The position numbers and the translations under genes are program-made. This document shows positions 13,612-45,801 of a stretch of DNA of 64,000 nucleotides, one piece after another; the first letter of the stretch is position 1; each line of letters opens with the position of its first letter. Origin of the DNA: a virus; the IMG/VR virus record IMGVR_UViG_3300024502_000010, positions 124,001 through 188,000 of that record; one strand, written 5' to 3'. The notes under the pieces were generated by a model. That model was not told the origin of the DNA. It saw nothing but the letters and a program-made list of their open reading frames with translations, and ran no database searches.

Positions 13612-15738
13612 TCAGAACTTAAATTTAAGTTTTGCAGATACTGCTGTGTTAGAAACTCCATCATTAATTTGATGTATTCCTTCAATAATAACCATTTCCT
13701 TATAATCAACAGAAGCAGATGCTTCAATCATTCCACTGGTTTCATAAGAACCACCAATAGTTACTCCAAATAAATCCTTTTTCTTTCCACCAAAACGGTG
13801 TGAAATATTTAGACCTACCTCACCAGAATGTGAAGTTTTGTTTATAGCATCAACAGTTCTTCTGGATTGAATAGAACCTTTCTCAGTAAATCCATCTCTC
13901 TGATAGTTACCAACAGTGTATCCAACAAATGGAGTTACATTCTTATTGAGATGCCAGAATAGTCTGTTATTTACAAACCACTCTTTTCCTTCTGTTGAAC
14001 TTTCATTATTGAAGACACTCTGAACATTTCTGGATACATTATATTTGTTCTGGGAGTATCCAGCATTTGTTAAGAGTGAGAATGTATTTCCACGGAACAT
14101 ATTGAATATTCCATAATGATTTTTGAGGAGTTTAGAAGTACTATCAACACCACCCAAATCAATGTTCATATTATTATATTGACCACCTATAGTCCAGGTT
14201 GGTTTAATATCAATCTCTAATCCACCACCAATGATTAAAGTCTTACCATTGTATCCATAATCACCAGAAGACCAGGCATAATAGTTGTTATTGAATACTC
14301 TTACTCTGTCTGTGGTTGGTTCAGTTGGTTCGTAAATAAACAGATTTTGTAATCCACCACCAATCTTATCTAAAACTTCATGCTGGTCAGTGCGTCCAGA
14401 AAGAACATCATGATTATTTTCAATATCAACAGAAAGAAGTAATGATGCTACAACGGTTCCATCACTATAAGTATCCTGTCTTAATAAAGGAGTTTGAGTT
14501 GTGGTTGCAAAGTCTCTTCTAATCTTTTGAACTCCATCCTTCTCAGATGCCTTATGAGTTACTTCTGTGGTAACAACAACTGGAAGTCCTGGTGCAGGAA
14601 CAGTCACAGAGTTTAATAATGTTGGTGGTTGTGGTTCAGGAGTTGGCTCTGGTGTAGGTTCAGGAGCAGGAGCAGGAGTGGGTTCAGGAGTTGGCTCTGG
14701 TGTTGGTTCTGGTTCTGGTGTAGGTTCAGGAGTTGGTTCGGGAGTTGGCTCTGGTGTAGGTTCAGGAGTTGGTTCGGGAGTTGGCTCTGGTGTAGGTTCA
14801 GGAGTTGGCTCTGGTGTAGGAGTTGGAGTTGGTGCTACCTCATCAACAGATGGAGCATCTGGATTATTTGGAGCAACAGGAGTGAATTCTTCACCATTTG
14901 CTGTTGTAGTTCCAGGTTGACTATCAACTAAAAGAACTGGTGATAGTGCGGTATCTCCAAGGTTGAATACTGCAAATCCCAAGAGATAATCACCATTAGC
15001 ACCTACTTGATAAGTTGAATACTGCCATCCAGTAGAACCAAAAGAACCTGTTGAATAATCACCAGTTCCTGGATTAGTAAATCCAAGTAATGCATAGTTT
15101 TGAAGTTGGTTATTAACTGTTACTGATGGAGAAGTTCCAGTTCCTTGATAAACAAGTGAAGTAATAGAACCATCATTGAAAGGAACATAGTCCGTTCCAA
15201 TGTAGTTCCAAGACATTGTATAAACTTTTCCAGTCTCCAAAGTGACTGATTTTGTAATCCAAGCAGCATCAGTAGGATTTGGATTTCCAAGTCCAGATGC
15301 TTGTTGCTGTTGAATAAGAAGGTCTCTTATTGCTTGATTTTGTTCTGCGGTTAAACCAAGTGCTTCTGTTGCCTGGTCGAATGTTTGCTGTCCATTTGGT
15401 TGTAGTGCTGCACCTGCGGTTCCGTAAGGAGCAAACTCCCAAGTGGTTGGTGTTACTGCGGGTGCGTAATATGGATTAGGAGAACCATCTTGTAATGTTG
15501 GACTTCCTTGTGCTGGGAAAGAACCGGCATTAAAGATAACTGGATTATCTACGACACTAACACCAGTTCCTCCTCCGTCGATTGTGGCATCTAATGTTCC
15601 TGTTTGAGTTCCAGTATTCCATCCTGAAGTATCTCCAGTCTCGAAATCTGTTCCAGATATTGTTTCTGCTAATGCTGCTGTTGATGCCCCCATTAAAAGA
15701 GCAGACGCTACAGCAAGCGCCCTTGTAGCGTAAGACAT
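13612..15738 (-). CDS. Autotransporter-like outer-membrane protein with PEPT repeats
   Basis: 708 residues. Order: signal peptide (MSYATRALAVASALLMG, cut near AALA); an extracellular beta-sandwich-like domain (GTDFETGDTSGWNTG is typical of secreted sugar-binding or anchor domains) to about residue 290; a Thr/Glu/Pro linker of TPEP repeats, about residues 300-370; and a C-terminal domain of alternating aromatic strands ending AVSAKLKFKF, the final Phe signature of outer-membrane beta-barrels. This is the layout of type V autotransporters. A beta-barrel would need host Bam and Sec machinery, so it acts in the infected cell, perhaps blocking adsorption of other phages or aiding lysis. The gene is flanked by late motifs and has a folded ribosome site. 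Confidence 0.8.
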   Translation of the reverse strand: MSYATRALAVASALLMGASTAALAETISGTDFETGDTSGWNTGTQTGTLDATIDGGGTGVSVVDNPVIFNAGSFPAQGSPTLQDGSPNPYYAPAVTPTTWEFAPYGTAGAALQPNGQQTFDQATEALGLTAEQNQAIRDLLIQQQQASGLGNPNPTDAAWITKSVTLETGKVYTMSWNYIGTDYVPFNDGSITSLVYQGTGTSPSVTVNNQLQNYALLGFTNPGTGDYSTGSFGSTGWQYSTYQVGANGDYLLGFAVFNLGDTALSPVLLVDSQPGTTTANGEEFTPVAPNNPDAPSVDEVAPTPTPTPEPTPEPTPEPTPEPTPEPTPEPTPEPTPEPTPEPEPTPEPTPEPTPAPAPEPTPEPTPEPQPPTLLNSVTVPAPGLPVVVTTEVTHKASEKDGVQKIRRDFATTTQTPLLRQDTYSDGTVVASLLLSVDIENNHDVLSGRTDQHEVLDKIGGGLQNLFIYEPTEPTTDRVRVFNNNYYAWSSGDYGYNGKTLIIGGGLEIDIKPTWTIGGQYNNMNIDLGGVDSTSKLLKNHYGIFNMFRGNTFSLLTNAGYSQNKYNVSRNVQSVFNNESSTEGKEWFVNNRLFWHLNKNVTPFVGYTVGNYQRDGFTEKGSIQSRRTVDAINKTSHSGEVGLNISHRFGGKKKDLFGVTIGGSYETSGMIEASASVDYKEMVIIEGIHQINDGVSNTAVSAKLKFKF
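14646..14834. repeat. Tandem repeat coding the TPEP linker
   Basis: Short in-frame repeats with the cores ggagttggctctggtgtagg and ggttcaggagttggttcggg encode the Pro/Glu/Thr linker of the autotransporter-like protein. Copy number is likely to vary between relatives. Confidence 0.85.
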
Positions 15739-19012: not shown

Positions 19013-19975
19013 TTACTGACCAATACGCCCAACAGCAATGCGTGATTTGTTGAGAACCGAACCTGCAAGAGGAACATAACCCAAATCATCAGCAATCATC
19101 TGTGCTTTTGTGCTCAAAGCATAGTTCAGAGCAGCACGGATATCATCAGTCTTAGCACCATTACCTTTCTTATATGCAAGGATCCAAGTCAGAGTAGAAA
19201 TTGGATATGCATTTGTTCCAGAGGGATTGGGATTTTCGCCAGCAAGGTTTGCATCCAGAGTAATGCTATTCAGAGCAGCAGCACCAGTCACAGCGGAAGG
19301 ACCGACAAACTTACCTGCCTTGTTTTGAATAACTGCTGCTTTAAGTTTGTTGGCACGAACAAATCCAGTATTCACATAACCAATAGCACCAGGAGTGTTT
19401 TTGATAGTACCAGAAACACCTTCGTTACCTTTTGAACCAACACCAGTAGGCCAATTAATAGACTTACCTACACCATAAGTCCAACCACCAAATGCTTCCA
19501 AAGAGTTGGTGAATGCAAAAGTAGTTCCAGAACCATCAGAACGATGAACAACTTTCATCGGACCAGCAGCACATCCGACTTGCTTCCAGTCTTTAATACG
19601 ACCAGCAAAAATATCAACAGTTTGCTTTTGAGTGAGTTTCAGAGTGCAACTAGGATTGTTGTAAGCAACAGCAATCGTTCCACCAATCATAGGGATCTGG
19701 ACAACACCACGCTTCACTTTTGCCGCTTCTGCGGGTTTGATGGGTTCGTCACTTGCTGCGAAATCAACCGTTCCCGCAAGGAATTGACGAACACCAGCAC
19801 CAGAACCAACGGACTGATAATTAACCCTACTCCCAGAAGTTCGTGCATAATCTTGGAACCATCGTTGATAAAGAGGTGCTGGGAAGGTGGCACCTGCACC
19901 GTTCAAAGTAGTCCCAGCAAATGCAGCAGCAGGAGCAAGAGCAAGACTAATAGAAATAAAGTTTTTGAGTTTCAT
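19013..19975 (-). CDS. pstS: Phosphate ABC transporter substrate-binding protein
   Basis: 320 residues with a signal peptide (MKLKNFISISLALAPAAAFA). The mature N-terminus LNGAGATFPAPLYQRW and the RSDGSGTTFAFTNSLE loop are the phosphate-binding segments of PstS. In cyanophages PstS boosts phosphate capture by the host transporter in low-phosphate water. A Pho-box-like sequence lies upstream and a terminator follows, so it is its own transcription unit. Confidence 0.96.
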   Translation of the reverse strand: MKLKNFISISLALAPAAAFAGTTLNGAGATFPAPLYQRWFQDYARTSGSRVNYQSVGSGAGVRQFLAGTVDFAASDEPIKPAEAAKVKRGVVQIPMIGGTIAVAYNNPSCTLKLTQKQTVDIFAGRIKDWKQVGCAAGPMKVVHRSDGSGTTFAFTNSLEAFGGWTYGVGKSINWPTGVGSKGNEGVSGTIKNTPGAIGYVNTGFVRANKLKAAVIQNKAGKFVGPSAVTGAAALNSITLDANLAGENPNPSGTNAYPISTLTWILAYKKGNGAKTDDIRAALNYALSTKAQMIADDLGYVPLAGSVLNKSRIAVGRIGQ

Positions 19976-19998: not shown

Positions 19999-20043
19999 AT
20001 TCTAAAGGAAATGAAAATTAAAGTCCACTAAGAGAAGGTTAAG
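19999..20043 (-). promoter_or_regulatory. Candidate Pho box and -10 of pstS
   Basis: CTTAACCT (20036..20043) is a full match to the cyanobacterial Pho half-site PyTTAAPyPyT. A weaker CTTAGTGG follows at 11-nt spacing, and TTTAATTT, again a full match, comes 10 nt later. TAGAAT (19999..20004) is a possible -10 with no good -35, as expected for an activated promoter. Use of host PhoB by phage pstS is established in related phages. Confidence 0.55.
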
Positions 20044-20045
20044 GT

Positions 20046-21338
<1,293 letters not shown>

Positions 21339-21357: not shown

Positions 21358-22854
21358 TCAGAAAGTAAATTTGGTTTGGATTACACCACCAAAGTTGGAA
21401 GAAGCATCAGTGAATGCTTGGTTGTTAGAAGCATAGAACACTGCAGGAGTAATAGTAATGTTATCGCTTACACGATACTTGTAGAATACTTCCCACATCG
21501 TTGCATCCTCATCCAGTCCTTCTGCATTACCAGGTTGACCCACAGCAAAACCTGCAGAATTACCCTTGGCAAGTACATCACTCCACTGAAGACCAGCATA
21601 CCAAGTTTGAGAATCGGTAGCACCAGCAGGAGTTGCTGCACCTTCAGCATTCAGACTTACAGTGTTCCAACCATAACCAGCAGATACCGAGGGAACAATG
21701 CCAGACTTAGAGGGTTGCCAGTAAGCACTCAGAGCATAACCGTTGGAGGTTTGACCTGGAGCAAGAGCACCAGAAGCACCAGCAACACCATTAAAGGTGC
21801 GAACACGAGTGCCTTCAGTACCATAACGATAACCGAATGCAATACCGTAGTTAGGAGCACGATAACCAATCTGTGCCAGAGTGTTCAGGGCACCCTTTTC
21901 GTTGAACTCACCTTTGGTGGAATCGCCACCATTTTGAGCAACATAGTTCAGACCAGCAACAAAACCTTTCTTACCTTGTGACCACTGGGCACCAAAACCA
22001 GCACCAGTTGCCTTGTTATAGACGCCAGGAGCACCAGCAAGTTGGAAGAAGTCAAGAACTTCCGACTTATATGCAGTAGGAATCCAGGTCATTTCAGTGT
22101 TACGAACCAGAGCACCAGCAGTCAGAGTTACACCCTTAGCAAGTGCAGGGAACTGATAGTAGAGACGGTCGAGAGTAACTGCATTTGCGGTACTCTCTGC
22201 CTTATCCAGTTTGAACAGAGAAGAAGAAGAACCGAAGGGTTGACTGGAGAAGTTGCCAGAACGCAGACGAGTGCGGAGCAGATCTTTACCAGTGAACGAT
22301 GTGTCAAAGTTCAGGCGAAGATCATAGTTGAATGCAGTATTACCAACATTCGTACTTGCAGTTGAACCGGGAGTCCAAGCATTATCTACACCACCAAGAA
22401 CAAAGTTTGCTTCACCGCGAAGTTTTGTGGTGGTAGAGAACTGAGTTGCTTCAAGAGCACCTACTTTGGTTTCCAAACTTGCAACCTTACCTTGAATAAC
22501 AGTGAGTTCATCACGGAACTCATTAGCAAGACGCTTGAGTTCATCAGTATTTTCTGTTACGCGATCCAAGCAAGCATTCAGAAGTGCTGCTGCCTCATAG
22601 CGAGTCATTGCTTTGCCACCACTGAAGGTGCCATTTGGATAACCAGCAACGCAACCATAACGCTCTACAAGGTTGCTGAGTGCCTGATATGCCCAATCCG
22701 TAGGTTGAACATCAGACAGTTGTGAGACGCTTGTGACCTGCTCAGAGGTTGCATATTGGTTGACTGCTGCCATGTTAAGGTCTGCCGCATTCGCAGCAAC
22801 AGGAGCAACCATTCCCAGAGCAACAGGTGCAAGCATCAGTTGTTTGAGTTTCAT
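21358..22854 (-). CDS. SLH/OprB-type outer-membrane porin
   Basis: 498 residues. Signal peptide (MKLKQLMLAPVALGMVAPVA), an S-layer-homology domain at about residues 45-95 (DVQPTDWAYQALSNLVERYG), a short coiled coil (about 100-135) that spans the periplasm, then a beta-barrel ending GGVIQTKFTF with the C-terminal Phe. This is the layout of the major cyanobacterial porins (Som/iron-uptake porin type). The SLH domain binds peptidoglycan. A phage copy would change the permeability of the infected cell, plausibly for phosphate or iron. It has its own strong promoter and terminator. Confidence 0.92.
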   Translation of the reverse strand: MKLKQLMLAPVALGMVAPVAANAADLNMAAVNQYATSEQVTSVSQLSDVQPTDWAYQALSNLVERYGCVAGYPNGTFSGGKAMTRYEAAALLNACLDRVTENTDELKRLANEFRDELTVIQGKVASLETKVGALEATQFSTTTKLRGEANFVLGGVDNAWTPGSTASTNVGNTAFNYDLRLNFDTSFTGKDLLRTRLRSGNFSSQPFGSSSSLFKLDKAESTANAVTLDRLYYQFPALAKGVTLTAGALVRNTEMTWIPTAYKSEVLDFFQLAGAPGVYNKATGAGFGAQWSQGKKGFVAGLNYVAQNGGDSTKGEFNEKGALNTLAQIGYRAPNYGIAFGYRYGTEGTRVRTFNGVAGASGALAPGQTSNGYALSAYWQPSKSGIVPSVSAGYGWNTVSLNAEGAATPAGATDSQTWYAGLQWSDVLAKGNSAGFAVGQPGNAEGLDEDATMWEVFYKYRVSDNITITPAVFYASNNQAFTDASSNFGGVIQTKFTF

Positions 22855-22921
22855 AAAATTATTTTTTATGTACTATAGGACAAATGTTAAGAATTACAAC
22901 TGAATTCTTAAGTACTTATTT

Positions 22922-22950
22922 AGTATAGAGAGATTCTTAAATTTTGTCAA
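22922..22950 (-). promoter_or_regulatory. Porin promoter, sigma-70 fused to late motif
   Basis: TTGACA (22945..22950), 17 nt, TATACT (22922..22927), continuing as TATACTAAATAAG with a CTAAATA late-type element. The -35 overlaps the stop codon of the GT25 gene. Confidence 0.75.
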
Positions 22951-45315: not shown

Positions 45316-45750
45316 TCATTGCAGGTGTGCTCTCAACTGCCAAACAAACTTACCATGAGATTCCATCAAATCTTGAACTAAATTTGCTGTAGCATATGAC
45401 TTTTGATTTTCAGACTCTTCCGAAATTTCTCCCATCAATTCACAAAACTTGGTATTGTTATCAAGAAGTTCTTGAAGCATTTCTTTTGCTCCGGTTGAAC
45501 TTGCTGCCTCTTTGATTTGAGTTACCTCAAGCATTCTTGAGAGAGAACTGAGAGGTTTTACATTCAGATAACGCATATGTTCTGAGAGACGATCAATCTC
45601 TTCAAACATAGTCTCATACTGACCACCAAAGAGTTGATGTAGTTGAGTGAAATCTTCACCTACAACATTCCAGTGAAATGCCCAAGTTTTATGGAATAAA
45701 ACAAAAAGCGATGACTGTGCATCACTCAAGAGTTTATAAAGTTTTTCCAT
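45316..45750 (-). CDS. dps: Dps/ferritin-like protein
   Basis: 144 residues. FHKTWAFHWNVVGEDFTQLH and YETMFEEIDRLSEHMRYL contain the His, Asp and Glu positions of the Dps intersubunit ferroxidase site. Dps dodecamers oxidise and store iron and often protect DNA from peroxide. A TATAAT and a CATAAATA motif lie just upstream. In a phage it may limit Fenton chemistry or hold iron for photosystems and oxygenases. Start MEKLYKLL at 45750. Confidence 0.87.
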   Translation of the reverse strand: MEKLYKLLSDAQSSLFVLFHKTWAFHWNVVGEDFTQLHQLFGGQYETMFEEIDRLSEHMRYLNVKPLSSLSRMLEVTQIKEAASSTGAKEMLQELLDNNTKFCELMGEISEESENQKSYATANLVQDLMESHGKFVWQLRAHLQ

Positions 45751-45801
45751 TATACTCTTTTTGAAATATTTATGCAAATGGGAGCAGAGGGATTCATTTT
45801 T

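Follow-up and report, generated by a model that had tools for sequence, protein, structure and literature searches.

The pstS gene is a well-known auxiliary metabolic gene of phages, whose product needs the PstCAB transporter of the host; passage across the outer membrane has so far been absent from this picture. Picocyanobacterial hosts raise Pi-stress porins together with PstS, and their phosphate clearance is constrained by porin-restricted diffusion (PMC3349580, PMC7250820, PMC3865332), outer-membrane passage being thought limiting (PMC7250820). Lysis is delayed in P-starved hosts unless the phage bears pstS, and pstS of P-SSM2 is reportedly controlled by the host PhoBR (PMC10976474). Phage porins as such are already known, from the annotation of S-SRM01, a viral OmpL beside amtB and porin-named proteins in BFVD, as is cyanophage pstS. 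A description of a conserved porin–pstS pair and of its exchange with Phage_OMP was not found in the open-licence literature searched.

The locus presented here lies in a stretch of 64,000 nucleotides (the window) of an IMG/VR virus record. The record (204,829 bp) contains psbA, psbD, hli, nrdA/B, glycosyltransferase genes and 13 tRNAs, a gene content typical of T4-like cyanophages, and the gene order in the window is GT25, porin, ahcY, pstS, hli, ferredoxin and peroxiredoxin. A PstCAB-type permease family was not found in the phage record, with all 14 control profiles positive. A search of the record for Gp23 gave no match and had no working control to lend this weight. The porin probably forms the outer-membrane part of a phage unit for phosphate scavenging, i.e., a channel combined with a PstS that feeds the host PstCAB.

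The porin gene, its protein and its relatives

The genes and protein parts on which the analysis centred are the following.

21358–22854, minus strand: SLH porin gene of the por_somb/OprB family, 498 aa, assigned from the ORF, Pfam and NCBIfam, intact in all complete relatives
22783–22854, minus strand: signal-peptide-like N-terminus, aa 1–24, recognised by eye, with a start region kept among relatives
22588–22716, minus strand: SLH domain, aa 47–89 (Pfam PF00395, 5e-8, above the Pfam cut-off)
22447–22602, minus strand: long helix or coiled coil of 52 residues, aa 85–136, from the AlphaFold2 secondary structure
21361–22431, minus strand: predicted 16-strand beta-barrel with C-terminal Phe, aa 142–498 (PF04966, AlphaFold2, and Foldseek to OmpF/OprP/OprB/OmpM1)
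20046–21299, minus strand: ahcY (adenosylhomocysteinase), an optional insertion between porin and pstS (TIGR00936, 639 bits)
19013–19975, minus strand: pstS, periplasmic phosphate-binding protein (TIGR00975, 268 bits against a cut-off of 205; phrog_5385)

The porin reading frame starts with ATG, has no internal stops and opens with the signal-type sequence MKLKQLMLAPVALGMVAPVAANA (by eye). The NCBIfam model NF033921 (por_somb) matched it with 291 bits (cut-off 100) over aa 40–498 and model positions 1–485, and the protein has the layout of that family, in which the signal sequence is followed by an SLH domain and an OprB-type barrel (PF04966 at aa 104–498, 1e-8, above the Pfam cut-off) with an aromatic last residue. 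The original prediction of a complete SLH porin in a phage was thereby confirmed, with an open ORF of 498 aa and the por_somb match standing in a virus record with cyanophage genes. By analogy with its family, the SLH domain likely serves as a tether between the outer membrane and the cell wall. A family for the window porin was not found in PHROGs v4, and PF24653 (Phage_OMP) was not among its Pfam families.

The AlphaFold2 model, built from 54 sequences and of modest confidence (pLDDT 59.8, pTM 0.53), consists of the SLH region, the 52-residue helix and 16 strands, and a Foldseek search with this model returned OmpF at the top (3.6e-12), followed, at about 4e-10 to 5e-10, by OprB, the SLH-bearing porin OmpM1 and OprP, a phosphate porin in which arginines form a ladder. 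Modelling of the pore charge, which had been suggested at the outset, gave a divided answer: the predicted lumen face is basic (13 K/R vs 4 D/E), which would suit anions, but the cellular homologues are similar, with 6–14 K/R vs 3–6 D/E, a range that overlaps the phage porin. A distinctively basic pore was for this reason rejected as proof of phosphate selectivity, and the charge was left as weak support. Elsewhere in the window (13612–15738, minus strand), a secreted protein of 708 aa contains an extended linker of TPEP repeats and ends in KLKFKF, its C-terminus resembling a second beta-barrel; it has homologues in 14 fetched loci, and no Pfam family scored above the cut-off.

Searching IMG/VR with the porin protein gave 439 matching stretches, which makes at least 439 relatives, and sets that overlap with these were obtained using the protein of contig L084 (309) or the family alignment (553) as the query. 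All 218 complete copies that were read were open (218/218), and among the 236 porin loci read, every short copy was interrupted by the end of its contig. The median dN/dS was 0.15 over 470 pairs of 85–97% identity (0.15 for the SLH and helix part, 0.14 for the barrel), so the porin is under strong purifying selection. The refuting case named in advance, a one-off recent capture of a host gene with decay in relatives, is contradicted by these hundreds of relatives, none of them decayed in the loci examined, and by the dN/dS.

In lambdoid phage PA-2, the Lc porin is phage-encoded, and the porin expression of the host is altered. A change of the cell surface, also raised at the outset, would be another use for the gene, in which the phage porin replaces or masks the host porins that serve as receptors and so keeps out other phages or grazers, with the SLH domain keeping the envelope tethered. 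In one of the two settings in which it occurs, the porin adjoins a large cluster of glycosyltransferase genes, and the SLH protein of S-PM2, which has an early and abundant transcript, was proposed to be protective (PMC2984593). This reading is nevertheless decidedly unlikely: exposed loops in an arms race would be expected to diversify, whereas purifying selection, measured as dN/dS over the whole barrel, is as strong on the barrel as on the SLH part, and the link to pstS and the Pho-box motif are left unexplained.

Among GenBank phages, the only full homologue of the porin was that of S-SRM01, at 76% identity. In the porin tree, all 123 of the 123 phage representatives formed one clade against six plasmid-borne cyanobacterial porins (32–34% identity to the phage porin), an outgroup that is distant and long-branched; picocyanobacterial host porins are likely closer. 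With a Leptolyngbya porin as the lead sequence, a scan of viral sequences returned phage-type porins only (best 39% identity), and a porin search of genome contigs had a single match, L084, itself a phage contig. This contig (CALGUV010000018.1), from a MAG labelled Microbacteriaceae, encodes the porin, a high-light-inducible-type protein, a ribonucleotide reductase and a sigma-factor-like gene; it is cyanophage-like and its placement a probable binning error.

Two further kinds of SLH protein were encountered. The porin at L105:3129–4646, which is followed by pstS, has the phage-type signal, SLH and helix joined to a clearly divergent barrel (53% identity overall), and its sequence makes it a likely chimera by barrel swap. 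The “iron uptake porin” of S-CREM1 (159277–160155, L083:7935–8813; 292 aa) and the S-layer protein of S-PM2 (123116–123955, L176:2432–3271; 279 aa) were considered as full porins and rejected, having only the SLH part in common; no porin-barrel match was found in Pfam for either. Judged by their sequences, these other cyanophages join the SLH to a different C-terminal part.

Pairing with pstS and the Phage_OMP barrels

An independent scan anchored on pstS found a same-strand porin upstream in 74 of 80 loci, a clade-level figure because the loci are the nearest relatives of the window pstS (78–100% identical), with repeats of the same phage included. Counting only loci with enough upstream sequence, the porin was present in 74/75. 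Five of the six loci without it end at a contig edge, including L112, where ahcY reaches towards the edge; the sixth (L104) has 6 kb upstream of pstS, and there a Phage_OMP protein of 124 aa (PF24653, 82 bits) fills the porin slot. The gap between porin and pstS in the 74 loci has a median of 154 bp, with 50 within 300 bp, 14 at 300–800 bp and ten larger, eight of these ten being due to ahcY. The latter gene, which had been taken as part of the unit, turned out to be a minor insertion, present in eight pstS-anchored loci with the porin, four of them identical to the window. Since the channel gene almost always lies just before the phosphate-capture gene, these viruses of aquatic cyanobacteria probably provide the dying host with phosphate uptake at its outer step as well as at its inner one. 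The original prediction had coupled outer-membrane uptake to periplasmic phosphate capture, and the 74/75 loci together with the Pho-box-type motifs bear out the coupling, with transport as its putative part.

Viewed from the porin, the association is looser: pstS lies within 2 kb downstream in 37 of the 74 loci with room. Each of 25 large records (103–284 kb) has one porin, and pstS occurs in 17 of the 25, each time beside the porin. Large records found via nrdA had the porin in 2/6, a sample too small for a prevalence. S-SRM01 has the porin, and pstS was not found in its whole genome; with about half of the porin-anchored loci being without a nearby pstS, the porin can evidently serve alone. 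On the porin tree, the pstS state changes at least 31 times, 21 of these changes being forced by supported branches, which argues that the pair was re-formed or broken many times, not only inherited.

These figures also bear on the possibility of a general-purpose porin or envelope tether, which would only replace lost host porins, preserve the envelope over a long infection and stand before pstS by the accident of a block-recombining module. The nearest folds are the non-specific OmpF/OmpC porins and many porin phages are without pstS, as this reading would have it, but inheritance as a block misfits the 21 or more supported changes, and a second barrel family occupies the same slot; this reading is very unlikely.

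Other features of these neighbourhoods were recorded. In the L064 record (G007:C1:215550–216513), pstS is split over two frames beside an intact porin, and may be a pseudogene or reflect a sequencing error. Small signal-bearing proteins without an assigned family lie between porin and pstS at L026:11515–11853 and L060:5746–6066. A Dps/ferritin-like gene (PF00210) is present in the window at 45316–45777 (minus strand), and in many relatives such a gene comes directly after porin–pstS, adjoining a conserved CxxC protein of 83 aa.

The second barrel family is that of marine isolates. Of 13 marine loci (P-SSM2, P-SSM7, S-SSM7, S-SM1, S-SM2, Bellamy, S-TIM5, S-SKS1, S-SSM5, S-SSM4, S-SCSM2R, P-RSM4 and AG-345-L05), 12 have a small Phage_OMP-type barrel, or two of them, immediately before pstS, with the Phage_OMP of P-SSM7 counted through its near identity to P-SSM2; P-RSM4 was the sole locus of the 13 in which no such barrel was found before pstS. 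The order in S-SCSM2R is GT, OMP, OMP, pstS, hli, petF, peroxiredoxin. PF24653 was not found in the record analysed here, in nine other IMG/VR porin records or in S-SRM01, with P-SSM2 and S-SCSM2R as positive controls (two matches each, both copies adjoining pstS). Locus L011 has both porin and Phage_OMP, and L051 has a gene of the Phage_OMP cluster; with these exceptions, the absence of PF24653 from the porin genomes checked means that Phage_OMP is, for the most part, replaced by the SLH porin. Pho boxes were reported upstream of the “DUF680” (Phage_OMP) gene, and a “DUF680”-type protein was found in virion preparations of S-SZBM1 (PMC9146016).

Promoters and Pho-box-type motifs

The regulatory features upstream of the two genes are as follows.

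22922–22950, minus strand: porin promoter TTGACA-17-TATACT (−35 at 22945–22950, −10 at 22922–22927), read from the sequence
22917–22923, minus strand: late-type CTAAATA overlapping the porin −10, read from the sequence
22887–22912, minus strand: inverted repeat CTTAAGAATT-cagttg-TAATTCTTAA in the porin leader, read from the sequence
22869–22882, minus strand: conserved leader element TGTCCTATAGTACA, recurring in relatives, without a good −35
20016–20043, minus strand: Pho-box-type motif CTTAACCTTCTCTTAGTGGACTTTAATT upstream of pstS, 40.3 bits, the top site of the window (runner-up 13.8)
19999–20004, minus strand: −10 element TAGAAT of the pstS promoter, without a TTGACA −35, read from the sequence

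A TTGAC-(17–19)-TANNNT promoter occurs upstream of the porin in 90% of 84 distinct relatives vs 1.6% in shuffles, and is therefore beyond chance; a T4-late-like [AC]TAAATA was found in 73% of relatives vs 8.6% in shuffles. The window has 15 strong promoters of the porin type on the same strand, which makes this one ordinary for the phage. What had been called a near-consensus dual promoter is thus sound as to its strong sigma70 TTGACA-17-TATACT, but its second half is weaker and the promoter type recurs at many genes of this phage. The leader inverted repeat varies between relatives (CTTAAGAATT..AATTCTTAA, CGTGC..GCACG, by eye), and the leader element, with the consensus TGTC(C/G)T(A/T)TAGTAC, lies near the porin ATG after the inverted repeat.

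The published cyanobacterial Pho box consists of tandem CTTAACCT 8-mers (PMC1906773). Judged by 8-mers PyTTAAPyPyW every 11 bp before pstS, the site at the window pstS is of this kind, the first 8-mer fitting CTTAACCT in full and the next two being degenerate. The motif, CTTAACC-(A/T)(A/T)N-TCTTAGTGGACTTTAA, is conserved in 64 of 68 distinct pstS upstreams, 55–83 bp before the ATG and followed by a −10, and a TTGACA promoter is rare at pstS (12%). A matrix of the motif, run over 2.07 Mb of loci (with redundancy), gave 106 sites at pstS, 28 at the porin and 6 elsewhere. The sites before the porin read CTTAACCAAATCTTAGTTGACAT and overlap the −35; 20 of 84 distinct porin upstreams passed vs 0 in 60 permuted matrices. 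No such site was found at the window's own porin promoter, the sole strong site of the window being that before pstS. In P-SSM2 and P-SSM7, neither of which had been used in building it, the matrix also matched the Phage_OMP–pstS promoter (19.2 bits), and no comparable score was found in S-SSM7, S-SM1, Bellamy or S-SRM01. Binding assays are needed before a Pho box predicted in a phage can be relied on (PMC10976474); the pstS site is a predicted Pho-box-type motif to which PhoB may bind. The idea that a porin Pho box substitutes for a missing pstS (raw Fisher p 0.046) was rejected, being unsupported in kinship-independent pairs.

Control by PhoB could also be a matter of Fe/P cross-talk, if the protein were an iron-uptake porin offering an outer-membrane route for inorganic iron to photosystems, ferredoxin and ribonucleotide reductase. 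In Synechocystis, Slr1908 is an Fe-selective porin that is PhoB-bound and PhoB-controlled (PMC11126600), and in 39 of 123 representative loci, as in S-SRM01, the porin is followed by a Dps/ferritin-like gene; the Dps gene, however, keeps its own slot beside the 83-aa gene even with pstS in between. The NF033921 model is named iron uptake porin, but this name covers the whole SLH-porin family. As the near-fixed partner is pstS and no iron-binding protein, and the basic lumen face of the model would favour anions, iron uptake is an unlikely role.

Phosphate import across two membranes and the known systems

In the phosphate-scavenging reading, the infecting phage would make its own SLH-anchored channel of the general-porin type, to be inserted into the host outer membrane, and the phage PstS would bind periplasmic phosphate and pass it to the host PstCAB transporter. 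Phosphate uptake would be eased at its outer-membrane step by a porin next to pstS, and the two proteins together might keep phosphate entering a cell with failing envelope-protein synthesis, to the benefit of phage DNA synthesis. In the window, the strong early-type promoter would drive the porin, and the Pho-box-type promoter, presumably read by host PhoB, would drive pstS; in some relatives, the putative Pho box is on the porin promoter itself. The SLH porin occupies the genomic place that small Phage_OMP barrels have in marine cyanophages.

A wider proposal can be made tentatively, namely that cyanophages with pstS could as a rule carry an adjacent outer-membrane channel under host PhoB control, so that phosphate import is rebuilt across both membranes, and that barrels from two unrelated families are exchanged in one slot (Phage_OMP in the marine isolates studied, the SLH porin here). 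A barrel–pstS pair is conserved in many viral contigs, in some lineages with the same Pho-type motif at each gene, and points to relief of the outer-membrane step by the phages as well. From the pairing follow a testable role for the “DUF680”/Phage_OMP proteins found in marine isolates and a direct prediction for phosphate flux in infected cells.

The phage porin resembles the cyanobacterial SLH porins (Som / por_somb, NF033921) in its signal sequence, single SLH, long helix and barrel with terminal Phe, and differs from them in being phage-encoded and in that a segment linking the SLH domain to the helix is absent from the three phage sequences aligned with them. The porin of S-SRM01 (YP_010670258), a phage of a freshwater Synechococcus host, is 76% identical over its full length and annotated “porin”, but its genome is without pstS and the porin is unmentioned in the description of the phage (PMC8557907). 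The Pi-stress porin PhoE of Prochlorococcus and Synechococcus is raised together with PstS under phosphate stress (PMC3349580, PMC7250820), like the pair proposed here; it is, however, a host chromosomal gene, and the likeness is one of reported expression. The viral OmpL next to glnK–amtB in oxygen-minimum-zone viruses is likewise a viral porin beside a nutrient-uptake gene, but a different porin from another host group, with ammonium genes and on few contigs (PMC8115048). In the Phage_OMP (PF24653) and pstS pair of P-SSM2, S-SM1, S-SCSM2R and others, an outer-membrane-type barrel gene also lies immediately upstream of pstS on the same strand; the Pho-box-type motif recurs in P-SSM2 and P-SSM7, and the neighbours GT, pstS, hli, petF and prx are common to S-SCSM2R and the window. 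Phage_OMP itself, often present as two copies, is a barrel of 118–142 aa that is without SLH and belongs to an unrelated Pfam family, whereas the window encodes an SLH porin of 498 aa.
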